Below, piece after piece: positions 18,901 through 24,730 of a DNA stretch of 25,134 bases. Under the pieces are notes generated by a model. It was not told the origin of the DNA, ran no database searches, and was given only the letters and a program-made list of their open reading frames with translations. The translations under genes were made by a program, and so were the position numbers. Origin of the DNA: a virus. The DNA lies in IMG/VR virus record IMGVR_UViG_3300007344_000218, positions 1 to 25,134 of that record. One strand, written 5' to 3'. The stretch's first letter is position 1. The number at the start of each line of letters is the position of its first letter.

Positions 18901-21900
18901 TACGAAATCACAGTGCCTCAAGGAGCTGGAAAAACTGATTTGACTCTTGATGTATCTCAAACATTTGCTCTTGTAAAAGCTGGCCAAGGCGGGGTAGGGC
19001 AAGTTTACTTATATAAAAGTGCAGCAGCTACTGCAACTCCTTCCAGCCCCTCTGCATCTTTTCCTCAAGTTAAAGTAAATCTTCAAACCGGAGCAATTGA
19101 TACAACTGGAACAGATCCTAATGGAGATGCCGTTTATGATGGAGACGATGAAGGATGGTACACAAGTGCTTCAGCAGCACAAGCTGTAGGCACTGCTGGA
19201 CAGGTTGTATGGGTTGTTGCTGCCGCAGCCTCTGGATTTGAAACTTTCGATTATATAGAGAATGATGAGTGGACAACAGCGGCACAATTTAATGGAGAGA
19301 ATGGATTAAACTCAGCAACAATAGAAATATTTCAAGGAACAAATTCTTTAACTGCTCCCACTCTTCCTGAAGATATAGATTATACTTTTTCCTCGGGAGC
19401 TATAGCAGCAACGGGTAGTGGTACAGGATTGGGTTCCTGGTCTACAGATATGCCTGCCCCTTCAAAAACCGCTAAGTATGTTTGGAGAAGCGCGGCAGCT
19501 GCAATTAGTAACTCATCCACTGTCACAATTGATGGTACTGGCAGCGACCCTGCTGGAGAAGATTGGAGCACTCCTGAAATAGTTGCTCGTTTTTCTGCTG
19601 CCGATAAGATAATAGAGTACTATAAAAATACAACAACAAATACGGCTCCTACAACTCTGCCTGATATTACTTACGATTTTGATGACGATAGTATTACTGT
19701 AACAGCGCTGTCAGGTTGGAGCCAAGACGCCTCCGGAGTAGATTCTACAAATTTATATGAATGGAGAGTAGATAAGAGAGTTGTCTATCCCGATTCAGGT
19801 TCTACTGTAGCTATTAGTGGAAATGACTGGAACGGGCCTATACTCTTTTCTGCATATGGAGAAGTTGGAGAAGCAGCATACTCTGTTAGTGCAACAAATG
19901 TTAATCATACTTTTGTTGGCCAATCTGATGGCCTTGTAGATACTAATGATTTTTCATGTGGATTTGTTGTAAGAAAAGGAAGTCAAGCATATACTTTTGC
20001 TGCGACTGGTACTGCTGCAAATACTTATTTTGTTACTACTTCTAGTCCTGTTAATTGCGTACCTTCTGTAAATTCTAGTACAGGAGCGGTTACCATAACA
20101 GGAACTTCTGATATTTTAGACACTTCCAGTGTTAAAACAGCAAGTTTTACTATACAAGTTCTAGACTTAGGCGATTCAAATGCTATTATGGGAGAATTTG
20201 ATGTAAGTCTGTCTAAAATTATTCTTACTCGTGGTGGTGGTGATTTTACAAAAACCTCTGCAACTAATGCCGCAGCTTGGAAAGGAACCTTAACGAATGC
20301 GGCGGCGGTTGAAGCAGCGGCTTTTGTTATAGCTAATTCCGGGGACGGTTTTATAGTTCCAAATGATCGTGTTACAATGACAGATGGAACAAATGCAGCA
20401 ACGCGTATATATACTGGAGCAAGAACAGACACCTCGAGTACTGTCACTGCGGGCTCCTTTAGTAGTGTAGTAACAGAACTATTTGATGGAAGTGTTATTG
20501 TATCTGGGACTCTTTCAGCCGATAGACTTGCTGCAAATACTACTACCACAAATCAATTAAATGTTGGTAGTATATTGCAGGTAGGATCGCCGTCCGGGCC
20601 TGCTGCAGACGGCAAAGTGTACTCTGTAGGAAAAACATCTTATACGGATAATACTGCCGGATTTTATATGGACGGTAGTGGTAAAGTAAATATTGGTAAT
20701 TCCTCTAATTTCATGAAATTTGATGGCAGTACTTTTAGTTTTGGAGGTGCTGGAGGCGGTACTCAAGCAGTAAAGTTTGTACAAATCTTTAAGATTAATG
20801 ACAGTACTTTAGGATTCACTACAGGAAATGATGCAACAGATCAAACCTATTCTTCCCCATTAAATGGATTAGAGTCTGGCTGGAGCACAACTATACCCAC
20901 ACCTGCTACAGGTGAAAGTATTTATGTAGCATCTAGAACCTTCACTTCTGACGGACAATCTCCTCAAACATCCTCTTGGGACGGTCCTACTTTATATTCT
21001 TATATAGGCACTGATGGTGCTATCGGTCCGCAGGGCCCAGTAGGTCCTATTGGTCCAACGGGTGGTACAGGTCCTGCTGGAACCGGAGTTAATATTTATT
21101 TTACACGTACTAGTGGAACTCCAACGGCCACTGGGACTGCTGCTACTCCATCAGGCAATGTTACATGGTCTGATTCACCTCCTACAGGTACTACAAAACT
21201 ATGGGCTGTAAAGGGTACTAGCACTAATGGTACTACTTGGACTTGGGGGTCTCCCTACGCTCTAGAAGGTACTTCTGCAGTAGAACAATATGTATACCAG
21301 ATAAAAAGTAATGGGGGAGCTGCAACGAGTAACCCTCCCGCAGATGGAACATATAACTTCAGTAACGGTAATTGGAGTGCTCCTAGTGGCTGGCAAAAGG
21401 GGGTTCCGACTATAACTGCAGATAATGAAGTAGTATATGTATCTTATGCGGTAGCTACGGGTACTCCTACTACTACAAACGCTACACTTGATTGGTCAAG
21501 CGCTGCAGTATATGCTAGAAGAAATGATGGTGCTATCGGTCCGCAGGGCCCAGTAGGTCCTATTGGTCCAACGGGTGGTACAGGTCCTATCGGTCCGCAG
21601 GGCCCAGTAGGTCCAGTAGGTCCAGGGGGTCCGGCAGGCCCCACAGGCCCACTTGGGCCTAGTGGTTCTGCTTTTTACAATGTAGATGTTAATACTACTA
21701 CAGCGGCAAGTTCACTTACCCCTACGAATGCTCAGGTATTGGCAGTAATTGGCAGATATGCCGTAGTAGGAGACATAGTTGTTCTTACTACAAATAATAC
21801 TACCACTCCTTCTTACGGCTGGAGATGTACAGTGGCACAATCTTCTTCAAGTAATGGCAGTTGGACTGCTGCTGCTACATTTATCTCAGGAGATTTAATC

Positions 21901-22092
21901 GTAGATGGAAGCATTGGAGCAAGTGAAATAAAAGCAAATGCAATTGATGCAAACCAGTTAGCAATTTCAAATGCAAATGCGGGAGGAACTGGTATTTTTA
22001 TGTTCTCTGGAACAGGCGGTCCAAAAATAAATATATATGAAAGTGGTACTCTTCGAGTTAAATTAGGAAACTTATCAACGACTGGCGATTAA
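12994..22092 (+). CDS. Giant tail tip / central fibre protein, lambda gpJ-like host specificity protein
   Basis: Receptor-binding tip protein of 3032 residues (lambda J has 1132). N-terminal [24 protein letters not shown] is the J signature. [12 protein letters not shown] beta segment lies at about 140-209. The phage-tail_3 core (about 635-860) includes [22 protein letters not shown] and [17 protein letters not shown] fibronectin type III-like domain spans about 1075-1180. Then come Ig-like sections and six degenerate modules of about 65-105 residues (from 1999, 2105, 2205, 2591, 2699 and 2762). Two collagen-like Gly-X-Y blocks occupy 2675-2696 and 2846-2891. SADRLAANT (near 2503) and [17 protein letters not shown] near the C-terminus resemble DUF1983-type fibre segments. 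The start has AAGGAAA upstream. One base separates its stop from the oxygenase start. The C-terminal part probably trimerises as a fibre and contacts the receptor. Confidence 0.9.
21012..21075 (+). repeat. Direct repeat copy A encoding collagen-like block 1 of J
   Basis: 64 bases identical to 21525-21588, encoding [20 protein letters not shown] plus the following Pro. The offset is 513 bases, which is 171 codons, so recombination between copies would keep the frame. Confidence 0.95.
21525..21588 (+). repeat. Direct repeat copy B encoding collagen-like block 2 of J
   Basis: Exact 64-base copy of 21012-21075. It opens the longer second collagen-like block, which runs on for eight further Gly-X-Y triplets. 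Confidence 0.95.
21587..21614 (+). repeat. Partial third copy of the collagen-like repeat
   Basis: 28 bases identical to 21533-21560, offset 54 bases (18 codons), encoding a second GPQGPV-type run. It shows that the second block grew by local in-frame duplication. Confidence 0.85.
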
Positions 22093-22093
22093 A

Positions 22094-22654
22094 ATGAAAA
22101 AAATAATAGATACTCCTCTCTCTTTATGGAGAGGAGAGTTTTCTTCCGAAATATGTAGAAAAATAATAGCAGAAGGTTTAGAGTTAGACTTAGAAACTGC
22201 AGGAATTGATAAAACCATAGATACAAATATTCGTAAAAATAAAGTGGGCTGGTTCGAAGAAAACGGTTGGGTAGATAACTTATTATTTAATTATGTATCT
22301 AAAACAAATATGTTAAATGGTTGGAATTTTCATATAACCGATAAAGAAAAACCGCAGTTTACAGTTTATGAATCGAATGAGTTTTATAATTGGCACAGAG
22401 ATTGTGACGTAACTCTACCTCTGCAAAGAAAAATTTCAGTAACGGTTCAATTATCAAATCCTTTTACTTACGAAGGAGGAGACTTTAATATAAAAGACTA
22501 TTGGGGGCAAAACGATTTAGATATTCATCCTGATAGTAAAATAGAAGGAACTATTATAATATTTGCTTCGAGTCTTTTACATACAGTCTTTCCTGTTACA
22601 CAAGGTGTTAGGTATTCATTAGTACAGTGGTATTCAGGGCCAGATTTTATATAA
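22094..22654 (+). CDS. 2-oxoglutarate/Fe(II)-dependent oxygenase, prolyl-hydroxylase-like
   Basis: The product has 186 residues and is predicted to use 2-oxoglutarate, O2 and Fe(II) to hydroxylate a substrate. The double-stranded beta-helix motifs are complete: H101-x-D103 (FYNWHRDCDV) and H163 (LLHTVFPV) bind iron, and R173, ten residues on (GVRYSLVQWY), should bind the 2-oxoglutarate carboxylate. Y92 in the QFTVYESNEFYNWH section matches the usual Tyr of prolyl 4-hydroxylase-like enzymes, and GGDF in the middle is also typical. It begins one base after the stop of the J gene, which encodes Gly-Pro-X collagen-like blocks, so translation is probably coupled. The substrate is unknown. A tail fibre proline is one candidate, while host protein or nucleotide targets are alternatives. 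The family is confident. Confidence 0.9.
   Translation: MKKIIDTPLSLWRGEFSSEICRKIIAEGLELDLETAGIDKTIDTNIRKNKVGWFEENGWVDNLLFNYVSKTNMLNGWNFHITDKEKPQFTVYESNEFYNWHRDCDVTLPLQRKISVTVQLSNPFTYEGGDFNIKDYWGQNDLDIHPDSKIEGTIIIFASSLLHTVFPVTQGVRYSLVQWYSGPDFI
22113..22136 (+). other. Strong hairpin inside the start of the oxygenase gene
   Basis: A perfect 8-bp stem CTCCTCTC / GAGAGGAG (22113-22120 with 22129-22136), with an 8-base loop, is followed by AGAGTTTTCTT. It lies about 20 bases inside the oxygenase gene. It could act as an intragenic attenuator or limit translation at the end of the J message. The T run is not directly next to the stem. Confidence 0.45.
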
Positions 22655-22672: not shown

Positions 22673-22701
22673 TTGACATAGAATGTCCCCTTTGTTATAA
22701 T
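22673..22701 (+). promoter_or_regulatory. Consensus sigma-70 promoter for the fibre gene unit
   Basis: Perfect TTGACA (22673-22678) and perfect TATAAT (22696-22701) with a 17-base spacer. The predicted start near 22708 leaves a leader of only about 15 bases, with the ribosome binding site (TAGGAG, 22709-22714) at the very 5' end of the mRNA. The -35 box overlaps an inverted repeat, GACAT-AGA-ATGTC (22675-22687). Confidence 0.9.
22675..22687. promoter_or_regulatory. Possible operator overlapping the -35 box
   Basis: Perfect 5-bp inverted repeat GACAT-AGA-ATGTC covering the last four bases of the -35 box and the first half of the spacer. A repressor bound here would block RNA polymerase. It is short, so chance is possible. 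Confidence 0.3.
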
Positions 22702-22722: not shown

Positions 22723-23094
22723 ATGAGCGCAGCAACTTATAACTTATTCATTGACCAAGGGTCCGACTTTGCTATTGACTTGGTAATTAAGGAAAACGGT
22801 TCCGCAATGGATTTGACCAATTACTCCGGTCGGGGACAACTGCGCTCAACTCATGAGTCAACTACGATTGTGGGTTATTTTAAAGTTACAAAGACAAATC
22901 CTACAGGAGGCTCGTTAAAGGTAGAAATTCCAAACGGTAACTGGACGGACTCTGGAGGTACTGTTCGGCAGGGTAGCAAAGATATAGCGGCTGGGCAGTA
23001 TGTGTATGATTTAGAAATTTTTACGAATGCAGATGCAGTAGTTAAAAGGATTATGCAAGGAACTGCTACAATCAATCCGGAAGTTACACGATAA
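22723..23094 (+). CDS. Small virion-associated protein, Ig/baseplate-upper-protein-like
   Basis: A 123-residue, all-beta protein. It opens with ATYNLFIDQGSDFAIDLVI and continues with MDLTNYSGRGQLRS, GSLKVEIPNG, and AAGQYVYDLEIFTNADAVVKRI to the end. This pattern resembles small beta-sandwich structural proteins encoded beside fibre genes in many, especially marine, phages and the N-terminal part of BppU-type baseplate proteins. A specific role (adaptor between tip and fibre, or decoration) cannot be read from the sequence. It is the first gene behind a perfect promoter with a good ribosome binding site, which suggests many copies per particle. Its TAA overlaps the next start as TAATG. Confidence 0.6.
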   Translation: MSAATYNLFIDQGSDFAIDLVIKENGSAMDLTNYSGRGQLRSTHESTTIVGYFKVTKTNPTGGSLKVEIPNGNWTDSGGTVRQGSKDIAAGQYVYDLEIFTNADAVVKRIMQGTATINPEVTR

Positions 23095-23512: not shown

Positions 23513-24730
23513 ATGGCCACTACTCAAACTATTCAAATTAAGCGCAGTACAACCACCGCTGCTCCCAGCACCAGCCTAGCGGCAGGCGAACTCGCGTACT
23601 CAAGTAACTCTGATAAACTTTTTATCGGGCATCCCGATGGAACCACTGGTAATATTGTAATTGCATCTACCGCTCCTCTTACAGTCGGAGGCGATTCAGG
23701 TACTGATGTAACTATTAATATTCAAGATCTTCTTGATATTACTGGCGATACCGGTATTACTACTACTATTGCTAAGTCAGGAACTACAGCAACACTTAGT
23801 GTAGATCTTGACGATACTGCTGTAACTCCTGGAAGTTATGGCTCTTCTACTGCGATTCCTACTTTTACGGTCGACCAGCAAGGTCGTTTGACCGCAGCGG
23901 GCACTGCTTCGATTACTACAAGTCTTACTATTCAATCTGACGACGCGGTAGACAATGTTGTAGCTCTTGCCACAGATAAGTTAAAGATTCTTGGTGGAAC
24001 CGGTATTACTACAAGTAACACTGGTGATGATGTAACAATTACTGGAGATGATGCTACTACATCTACAAAAGGTATTGCATCTTTTAGCTCTGCTGACTTT
24101 TCTGTTTCTTCAGGAGCGGTTAGCATTGCAACTGGAGGAATTTCAAATACTCAACTTGTAAATGACTCTACATTCCTTGGAAGCACAGAACTTACTTTAG
24201 GCGATACGACAGGCACTACATCCACTATTGATGGCATGCAAGTTATTCATGGTATTGATGGTTCGGGCACAGATGCTGCCGGTACAAATCTTACCTTTAA
24301 AGCGGGTGCTGGTACTGGAGCAGGTGCGGGCGGTTCAATTATTTTCCAAACTGCTGATGGTGCTACAAGCGGTACAGGTGTAAATTCTTTCACTTCTGCA
24401 ATGACAATTGCAGACGATGGTGCTGTAACAATCGCGGGTGATCTTACTGTAAATGGTACAACTACTACTGTTAATTCAAACACTGTTGAAATTGGGGATA
24501 ATATTATTCTTCTCAACCGTGATGAAACGGGCACTCCTTCACAAAATGCGGGTATTGAAATTGAGCGAGGCACAGCAACAAATGTTTACTTGCGTTGGAA
24601 TGAGACTTCCGACATTTGGCAGGTATTTGAGCCCGATCCGAATAATAGCAATACTTTGACTACCGCGAATCTGTTGACAACTGTCAACTTTGAGACTCAG
24701 ATTACGACACTCGACGGCGGTACATTCTAA
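23513..24730 (+). CDS. Tail fibre protein with major tropism determinant-type N-terminus
   Basis: A 405-residue fibre, very rich in Thr, Gly, Ser and Ala. Residues 1-45 (TIQIKRSTTTAAPSTSLAAG, then ELAYSSNSDKLFIG) match the N-terminal attachment domain style of Bordetella phage Mtd. The middle is a long run of beta-helix-like repeats (NIQDLLDITGDTGIT, ILGGTGITTSNTGDDVTITG). LTVNGTTTTVNSNTVEIGDN followed by IILLNRDETGTPS, IEIERGTATNVYLRWNET and IWQVFEPD form a fibre-end module widespread in marine phage fibres. It ends TTLDGGTF. A TGGAG site precedes the ATG by about nine bases. There is no lectin-type variable region and no reverse transcriptase nearby, so diversity generation is not indicated. 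Confidence 0.78.
   Translation: MATTQTIQIKRSTTTAAPSTSLAAGELAYSSNSDKLFIGHPDGTTGNIVIASTAPLTVGGDSGTDVTINIQDLLDITGDTGITTTIAKSGTTATLSVDLDDTAVTPGSYGSSTAIPTFTVDQQGRLTAAGTASITTSLTIQSDDAVDNVVALATDKLKILGGTGITTSNTGDDVTITGDDATTSTKGIASFSSADFSVSSGAVSIATGGISNTQLVNDSTFLGSTELTLGDTTGTTSTIDGMQVIHGIDGSGTDAAGTNLTFKAGAGTGAGAGGSIIFQTADGATSGTGVNSFTSAMTIADDGAVTIAGDLTVNGTTTTVNSNTVEIGDNIILLNRDETGTPSQNAGIEIERGTATNVYLRWNETSDIWQVFEPDPNNSNTLTTANLLTTVNFETQITTLDGGTF

Follow-up and report, generated by a model that had tools for sequence, protein, structure and literature searches.

A candidate prolyl hydroxylase gene adjoins the collagen-bearing tail fibre gene J of a bacteriophage

The gene that follows the tail fibre gene J in IMG/VR virus record IMGVR_UViG_3300007344_000218 (positions 1 to 25,134, a 25 kb stretch with a G+C content of 38.6%, referred to here as the window) encodes a 2-oxoglutarate (2OG)/Fe(II) oxygenase, and this gene product is probably a phage prolyl hydroxylase with the collagen-like blocks of J as its substrate. 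Five observations form the basis of this assignment: the adjacency of the two genes, the intact catalytic residues, the predicted fold, the repeated co-occurrence of the oxygenase with proline-bearing collagen, and its absence beside the proline-free collagens that were found. From them we infer the activity of the enzyme, its substrate, the timing of the reaction, the carbon position that is hydroxylated and the benefit, whether to stability or to receptor contact. An earlier note, made from the letters of the window alone, had suggested that the phage may hydroxylate its own tip fibre, a suggestion that was supported by the surveys reported here.

The J protein is a member of the J-core family phrog_31 (Table 1). 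It carries the two Gly-Pro-X blocks that had been reported in the earlier note, although their size and location were different: the strict Gly-X-Y pattern gave 9 and 16 triplets (5 and 13 of them Gly-Pro-X) instead of 7 and 15, and the blocks do not end the protein, since 334 residues are C-terminal to the first and 139 to the second. The statement that the prolines are in the X position held for all 18 of them; there are no prolines in Y and there is no lysine. Runs of at least 7 triplets with at least 5 proline-bearing were obtained in 0 of 2000 shuffles of J. The Pfam Collagen profile (PF01391) scored 23.4 bits on J, or 27.3 bits when neighbours in frame were counted, against a cut-off of 27.2.

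The ATG of the oxygenase gene, at 22094, is separated by a single base from the J stop codon, which ends at 22092. The prediction of a complete 2OG/Fe(II) oxygenase at this place, with H101, D103, H163 and R173 as active site residues, was confirmed by the coordinates, by Pfam and by the invariance of all four residues in 44 aligned relatives (chosen rows). The only Pfam family matched was 2OG-FeII_Oxy_3 (PF13640; 49 bits, cut-off 27), the match to phrog_61, '2OG-Fe(II) oxygenase', had a value of 1e-29, and both the motif and the predicted double-stranded beta-helix placed the protein in the 2OG-Fe(II) oxygenase superfamily. When the predicted model was compared with solved structures in VIA-align, the top rows were all prolyl hydroxylases, tied at Z scores of approximately 18-19.3: the Pseudomonas putida prolyl 4-hydroxylase (P4H) with EF-Tu at 19.3, the chlorella-virus enzyme vCPH at 19.1 and HIF-type hydroxylases at 18-19. 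The first enzyme of another kind was PiuC (Z 17.3). The model therefore has a prolyl-hydroxylase fold, and a shared fold shows neither function nor a preference for C3 or C4. R173 is presumably the 2OG anchor. In the animal-type collagen P4H alpha subunit this anchor is a lysine; here the position is Arg173, invariant in the 44 rows. The protein was not filed with the animal-type subunits.

A broad oxygenase alignment scan (A5), which replaced earlier scans of 14 and 6 (A2) loci, yielded 79 loci. Ten of these adjoined a J stop codon (two, L003 and L004, are near-identical), and Gly-Pro sequence was present in all of their J proteins. The position between J and the next gene, which matches phrog_1084, is referred to as the slot, and its content was recorded in the best 80 of 434 loci centred on the phrog_1084 gene. 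In this census the gap between J and the phrog_1084 gene was normally 66-74 nt. Among the 76 loci with J or a J fragment, the slot was empty in 69, and contained the oxygenase in 5, a glycosyltransferase-like Capsule_synth gene in 1 (L175, on the same contig as L020) and a 103-aa frame in 1.

The J proteins of 90 systems, which formed 79 clusters at 90%, were then tabulated against slot content. Eight of the 80 census loci were omitted (4 without J, 4 with a J fragment only), while 5 oxygenase loci from outside the census (L004 being omitted) and 13 loci from a J-core scan were added. Collagen was termed strong if it had at least 8 triplets, at least 5 of them with proline, and weak if it had at least 4 triplets with 2, or GPPG pairs. 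The 4-with-2 rule was reached by 0.3% of shuffled J tails; the GPPG rule was introduced after L002 had been seen and is needed for L002 only. All 10 oxygenase-positive clusters, 5 of which came from the oxygenase scans, had a collagen-like J (7 strong, 3 weak), compared to 11 of the 68 oxygenase-negative clusters (1 strong, 10 weak, 57 with none); the cluster of L175 was placed in neither row. The Fisher value was 2.8e-7, or 3.5e-7 for strong collagen only, and 7.9e-6 without the GPPG rule (9/10 versus 11/68). The slot census alone gave 5/5 versus 10/55 (0.0005), and 3/5 versus 1/55 for strong collagen only (0.0011). These values are uncorrected for descent because the J tree contains only three independent pairs. 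The earlier note had named as a test a survey of whether the oxygenase is equally common beside tip genes that lack collagen, and by these figures it is not. The idea that proline occupies one fixed triplet position was dropped, as the collagens of J proteins with a slot oxygenase use X, Y or both.

These counts also bear on the possibility that the oxygenase acts elsewhere on J, or on a different tail protein, and that collagen is a mere marker of long modular fibres. The enzyme is present in L204 and L002, where the collagen-like stretch is only short, and the tail-fibre gene that follows the relative in isolate S-SCSM1 yielded no run of even 3 triplets. This explanation is nonetheless very unlikely, since J without collagen and without the enzyme is the commonest class (57 of 79 clusters) and since proline content separates the PLOD loci described below.

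The ten slot oxygenases formed one clade (support 100/99) in a tree and alignment (A8) made from chosen rows and not from all 79 loci. The J proteins next to them were scattered. For the seven that have the J core, the J-core tree required four changes (the window, L184, L204 and the L002-L006 group), and the three others are without a J core. Nine of the 90 systems had no usable core and were left out of the tree; the J-core alignment (A4) had 4 rows, with L006 excluded as its motif was not matched. The J proteins of L204 and L209 show no difference in the J-core columns used, and yet the oxygenase is present in L204 only and their collagen-like stretches differ. This scattered distribution, together with the difference between L204 and L209, points to repeated movement or loss of a gene that occurs with collagen-bearing J.

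The association was also approached from the side of collagen. A DNA pattern of five Gly-Pro-X in register retrieved at least 120 viral loci, 113 of them with a collagen open reading frame, and a random 14-mer provided a control of at least 120 loci that was unmatched for biome or gene type. Among the loci listed, the oxygenase family was present in 9/113 collagen loci and 0/120 random loci (p 0.0013). The profile used (A8) includes 8 of the 9 matches; profiles A5 and A7, which do not contain them, also found those 8, and the controls were scanned with A8 only. All nine oxygenases were on the same strand as the collagen and downstream of it, from an overlap of approximately 58 nt to a distance of 2.4 kb; one, in L340, was a weaker match that also matched the PLOD profile.

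Loci with a PLOD-like protein allowed the target residue to be considered. In L259 the fibre has at least 164 triplets, the oxygenase begins 14 bases beyond it, and a 607-aa PLOD-like protein comes next. This protein has Glyco_transf_25 and GT_PLOD domains, and its 2OG oxygenase match, at 25.6 bits, falls just short of the cut-off of 27. Successive parts of a six-protein PLOD-like profile matched procollagen galactosyltransferase 1 (approximately 1e-33), LH3 (1e-54) and the mimivirus lysyl hydroxylase domain (1.5e-15). The PLOD-like scan of viral contigs retained 80 of 391 loci, and in the 54 of these with 1.5 kb upstream a collagen fibre ended within 4 kb in 50 and a slot-type oxygenase lay within 1.5 kb in 42. 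In the cyanophage isolates S-PRM1, S-CAM9 and S-8S53 the collagen fibre, with 22-24 Y lysines and 20-31 X prolines, is followed in turn by a small gene, another 2OG oxygenase, the slot-type oxygenase and the PLOD-like gene. The fibre of Roseobacter phage CRP-6 (99 triplets, 26 lysines, 6 prolines) is accompanied by a PLOD-like gene, which encodes the sole match to the oxygenase profile in that genome; no slot-type oxygenase was found in it. Galactosyltransferase, PLOD glucosyltransferase and lysyl hydroxylase parts were seen after collagen fibres at L259:2798-5178 and, in S-PRM1, at L482:11447-13845.

For the 56 loci that had collagen within 4 kb and 1000 nt or more of upstream sequence, drawn from the 80 retained loci plus CRP-6, the oxygenase was present beside 43 of 47 proline-containing collagens and 0 of 9 proline-free collagens (Fisher 9e-8). 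Clustering of the PLOD-like proteins at 85% gave 17/19 versus 0/3 (p 0.0065), and at 75% 14/16 versus 0/3 (p 0.010). In L550 a profile-matching oxygenase with HxD...H...R lies before, and not after, a proline-free fibre. That the presence of the enzyme tracks proline is the strongest sign, resting on three proline-free clusters, that proline would be the target residue. The proline of these 56 collagens is nearly all in X. The earlier note had cautioned that X is not the position favoured in animal 4-hydroxylation; that caution is largely lifted by this result and by the Bacillus anthracis P4H, which also takes X prolines (PMC8968730). The fold does not distinguish C3 from C4. The statement that a PLOD-like gene always goes with lysine was dropped, since 11 collagens with at least 15% lysine in Y had no PLOD-like match in the stretch. 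Full-length or contig-cut PLOD-like genes go with lysine-rich collagens, and the partial profile matches in L256, L303 and L340 with lysine-poor ones.

It is unlikely that the enzyme acts on the collagen block at Y threonine or at C3 of proline, perhaps to create a hydroxyl to which a sugar could be attached. Y threonine is common in some of the J collagens (7 in L097, 7 in L099 and 15 in L020), and the slot next to the L020 J holds a glycosyltransferase-like gene. The presence of the enzyme follows proline, however, L003 has the enzyme and 16 Y prolines without any Y threonine, and the fold resembles that of prolyl hydroxylases.

Several observations weigh against the proposed role on J collagen. 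Among solved proteins, PKHD-type hydroxylases are closest in sequence; the Foldseek E-value places PiuC fourth, with another putative oxygenase also among the matches, and the best fold set includes an enzyme that binds EF-Tu. Collagen is frequently found without the enzyme: 104 of the 113 listed collagen loci had no such oxygenase in the stretch examined, L533, L539, L540 and CRP-6 have collagen proline and no such oxygenase between fibre and PLOD, and L020 has strong collagen with a glycosyltransferase-like gene in the slot instead. The slot is empty in L173 and in the pair L238/L240 (which has a 5-triplet run), J relatives that are nearer to the window than L020 is. At E 1e-3 the Pfam Collagen profile matched only 5 of 9 J-slot records, versus 1 of 16 records with a relative elsewhere. 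The nine proline-free collagens represent only three clusters, and on the J tree the three independent pairs (a mean of 1.8 agree for strong collagen, 0 disagree) make significance impossible. Conversely, the enzyme is frequently found without collagen. Sixty-nine of the 79 oxygenase-scan loci are not next to J; in 68 of these 69, which are partial contigs, a run of at least 7 triplets was absent from every frame, and in 46 a helicase frame lies within 1.1 kb downstream. Two examples of these frames match phage DNA helicases, and in some isolates the gene is annotated uvsW. When collagen was sought within 8-12 kb in eight isolates with a relative (P-SSM7, Syn30, ACG-2014a, HTVC008M, HTVC023P, S-SCSM1, S-H38 and 023Pt_psg01), only a 6-triplet run, in HTVC023P, was found; some of the isolates' relatives are near baseplate or fibre genes with no collagen. 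Since so many relatives are away from collagen, action on collagen does not characterise the oxygenase family as a whole. The relatives in L007-L014 and L100-L150 are mostly 33-48% identical to the window oxygenase, and many stand just before a helicase, often after a small gene.

The distribution of these relatives raises two other possible roles. One is modification of a host protein such as EF-Tu, the gene being located after J only because the slot tolerates cargo; the tie of the P. putida enzyme for best fold would fit this, as would the collagen-free relatives beside a helicase, an annotated DNA endonuclease V or baseplate genes. We regard this role as quite unlikely, since a host-directed enzyme would need neither a collagen-like J, which was present in 10 of 10 slot clusters, nor absence beside proline-free collagens. 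The second is an AlkB-like role in DNA repair or DNA modification, as proposed for cyanophage relatives, and it is highly improbable for the slot copies, which are located in the tail region and whose closest solved folds are protein hydroxylases. In its favour are the downstream helicase frames and the prolyl-4-hydroxylase-domain genes noted in Syn9 beside uvsX and uvsY (PMC2984593).

In the window the slot is closed by a perfect sigma-70-type promoter. In the 34 of 80 census loci that were checked, a promoter with 11-12 of 12 consensus bases was at the same place in every case (34/34), and 10 was reached by 4% of shuffled stretches. A new transcription unit probably starts after this promoter. 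Because the slot lies between the J stop and the conserved promoter, a slot gene is most simply read with J, and since the next conserved promoter comes after the oxygenase, J and the oxygenase are probably on one message. Slot oxygenases start between a 1-base overlap and 14 bases after the J stop, a spacing that makes translational joining plausible. The enzyme would then hydroxylate J prolines, which in the window all occupy the X position of Gly-Pro-X. This would presumably happen while the J chains are not yet wound into a triple helix, and the outcome would be hydroxyproline in the tip-fibre stalk. A terminator-like hairpin with a T-run is located at 22113-22136, inside the first oxygenase codons (4 overlapping predictions versus 0.2 expected); its folding was no better than that of many shuffles (z -1.36).

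The surveys of related viruses suggest that phages, like animals, apply chemical finishing to the collagen they make. There is an even chance that this reflects a modular collagen-finishing system in tailed phages, in which the fibre gene is followed by a slot or cassette whose enzymes suit the residues of that fibre. A slot-type oxygenase would serve proline, a three-domain PLOD-like enzyme (galactosyltransferase, glucosyltransferase and lysyl hydroxylase) would serve Y lysine, and other glycosyltransferases would be a further option. If so, hydroxylated and glycosylated collagen stalks would be ordinary in many phage virions, enzyme swaps would tune stability or adsorption, and collagen finishing would belong to virion assembly in several phage groups. 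For one branch of the phage 2OG oxygenases these loci point to a specific candidate substrate, and isolates S-PRM1, S-CAM9 and CRP-6 exist for testing.

The coordinates of the window features are given in Table 1. Three further loci were recorded. A Capsule_synth-like gene (PF05159; L020:11980-13038) overlaps the stop of the strong-collagen J that is without an oxygenase, and threonine is frequent in Y of that collagen. L256:1-13774 encodes fibres of 308 and 259 triplets, then a protein that matches glycosyltransferase group 1 and family 25, a slot-type oxygenase and more genes. In the window, the gene at 23513-24730 has a weak match to the Major tropism determinant N-terminal domain (Mtd_N, 20.4 bits, below cut-off). 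A profile scan of genome contigs with slot oxygenases, in search of the host, gave two weak loci only.

Table 1. Coordinates of J, the slot oxygenase and neighbouring features in the window.
Feature	Position	Strand	Basis or remark
J, central tail fibre / tail-tip host-specificity protein, lambda-type, 3032 aa	12994..22092	+	phrog_31 'central tail fiber J' E 3e-136; Pfam Phage-tail_3 E 5e-22
Collagen-like block 1, 9 Gly-X-Y triplets (5 Gly-Pro-X), aa 2672-2698	21007..21087	+	strict G-X-Y pattern
73-nt repeat over core of block 1	21003..21075	+	copies at 21516-21588 (95% identical) and 21570-21642 (71%)
Collagen-like block 2, 16 Gly-X-Y triplets (13 Gly-Pro-X), aa 2846-2893	21529..21672	+	strict G-X-Y pattern
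J C-terminal part beyond collagen, 139 aa	21673..22089	+	LRVKLGNL-like end in many relatives
2OG-Fe(II) oxygenase, complete, 186 aa, proposed collagen prolyl hydroxylase	22094..22654	+	PF13640 49 bits; phrog_61; model pLDDT 94.2; fold matches
H101 and D103 codons, iron ligands (HxD)	22394..22402	+	sequence; invariant in 44 relatives
H163 codon, third iron ligand	22580..22582	+	sequence; invariant in 44 relatives
R173 codon	22610..22612	+	sequence; invariant in 44 relatives
Perfect sigma-70-type promoter closing the slot	22673..22701	+	12/12 consensus bases
phrog_1084 gene, first after the slot	22723..23094	+	PHROG match; census anchor

Among known systems, the collagen prolyl hydroxylase vCPH of chlorella virus PBCV-1 (5c5t) is alike in being a viral 2OG enzyme with the prolyl hydroxylase fold (Z 19.1, 163 residues aligned). 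It differs in that its virus infects a eukaryote and its identity is 21%, whereas the window gene belongs to a bacteriophage and begins one base after the gene of its proposed substrate. Closest by sequence were the PKHD-type hydroxylases (3dkq, 6e-16; PiuC 9ghl, 2e-12), which matched only residues 90-182, the catalytic half. These form the sequence family of PiuC and Sbal_3634, and we know of no link between them and collagen. The best fold match, the P. putida P4H that binds EF-Tu (4iw3, 4j25), differs in being bacterial and in having a translation factor as partner; to our knowledge it also has no link to collagen. The B. anthracis P4H (5hv0; profile match 6.6e-6) is a cellular enzyme, and it is described in a review as hydroxylating both X and Y prolines of PPG peptides, with Y favoured (PMC8968730).

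Mimivirus L230, the lysyl hydroxylase/glycosyltransferase of a viral collagen (6ax6), provides a further case of a virus modifying its own collagen, and its hydroxylase domain is matched by the phage PLOD-like proteins beside the oxygenase family. According to a review (PMC9614988), L230 acts on lysine; in contrast, the window collagen is without lysine, and the frames adjoining J and the oxygenase were not PLOD-like in Pfam and PHROG searches. The family phrog_61 takes in PLOD-like and other oxygenases as well as the window gene, and its category is auxiliary metabolic genes rather than tail modification. Its profile (689 positions) aligns to the whole PLOD-like protein L259:2798-4621, and phrog_61 therefore lumps PLOD-like proteins with single-domain oxygenases. 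The Phold paper (PMC12774648) notes a resemblance of phrog_61 proteins to the human prolyl hydroxylase EGLN3. PMC9301287 mentions tail-fibre collagen together with prolyl 4-hydroxylase, as an open question, and searches of open-licence PMC papers yielded none that links an oxygenase of phages with phage collagen, whether through gene neighbourhood or through an assay. Collagen hydroxylases of eukaryote viruses and a bacterial enzyme active on collagen peptides are already known; the window gene would encode a bacteriophage collagen hydroxylase in an operon with its fibre.

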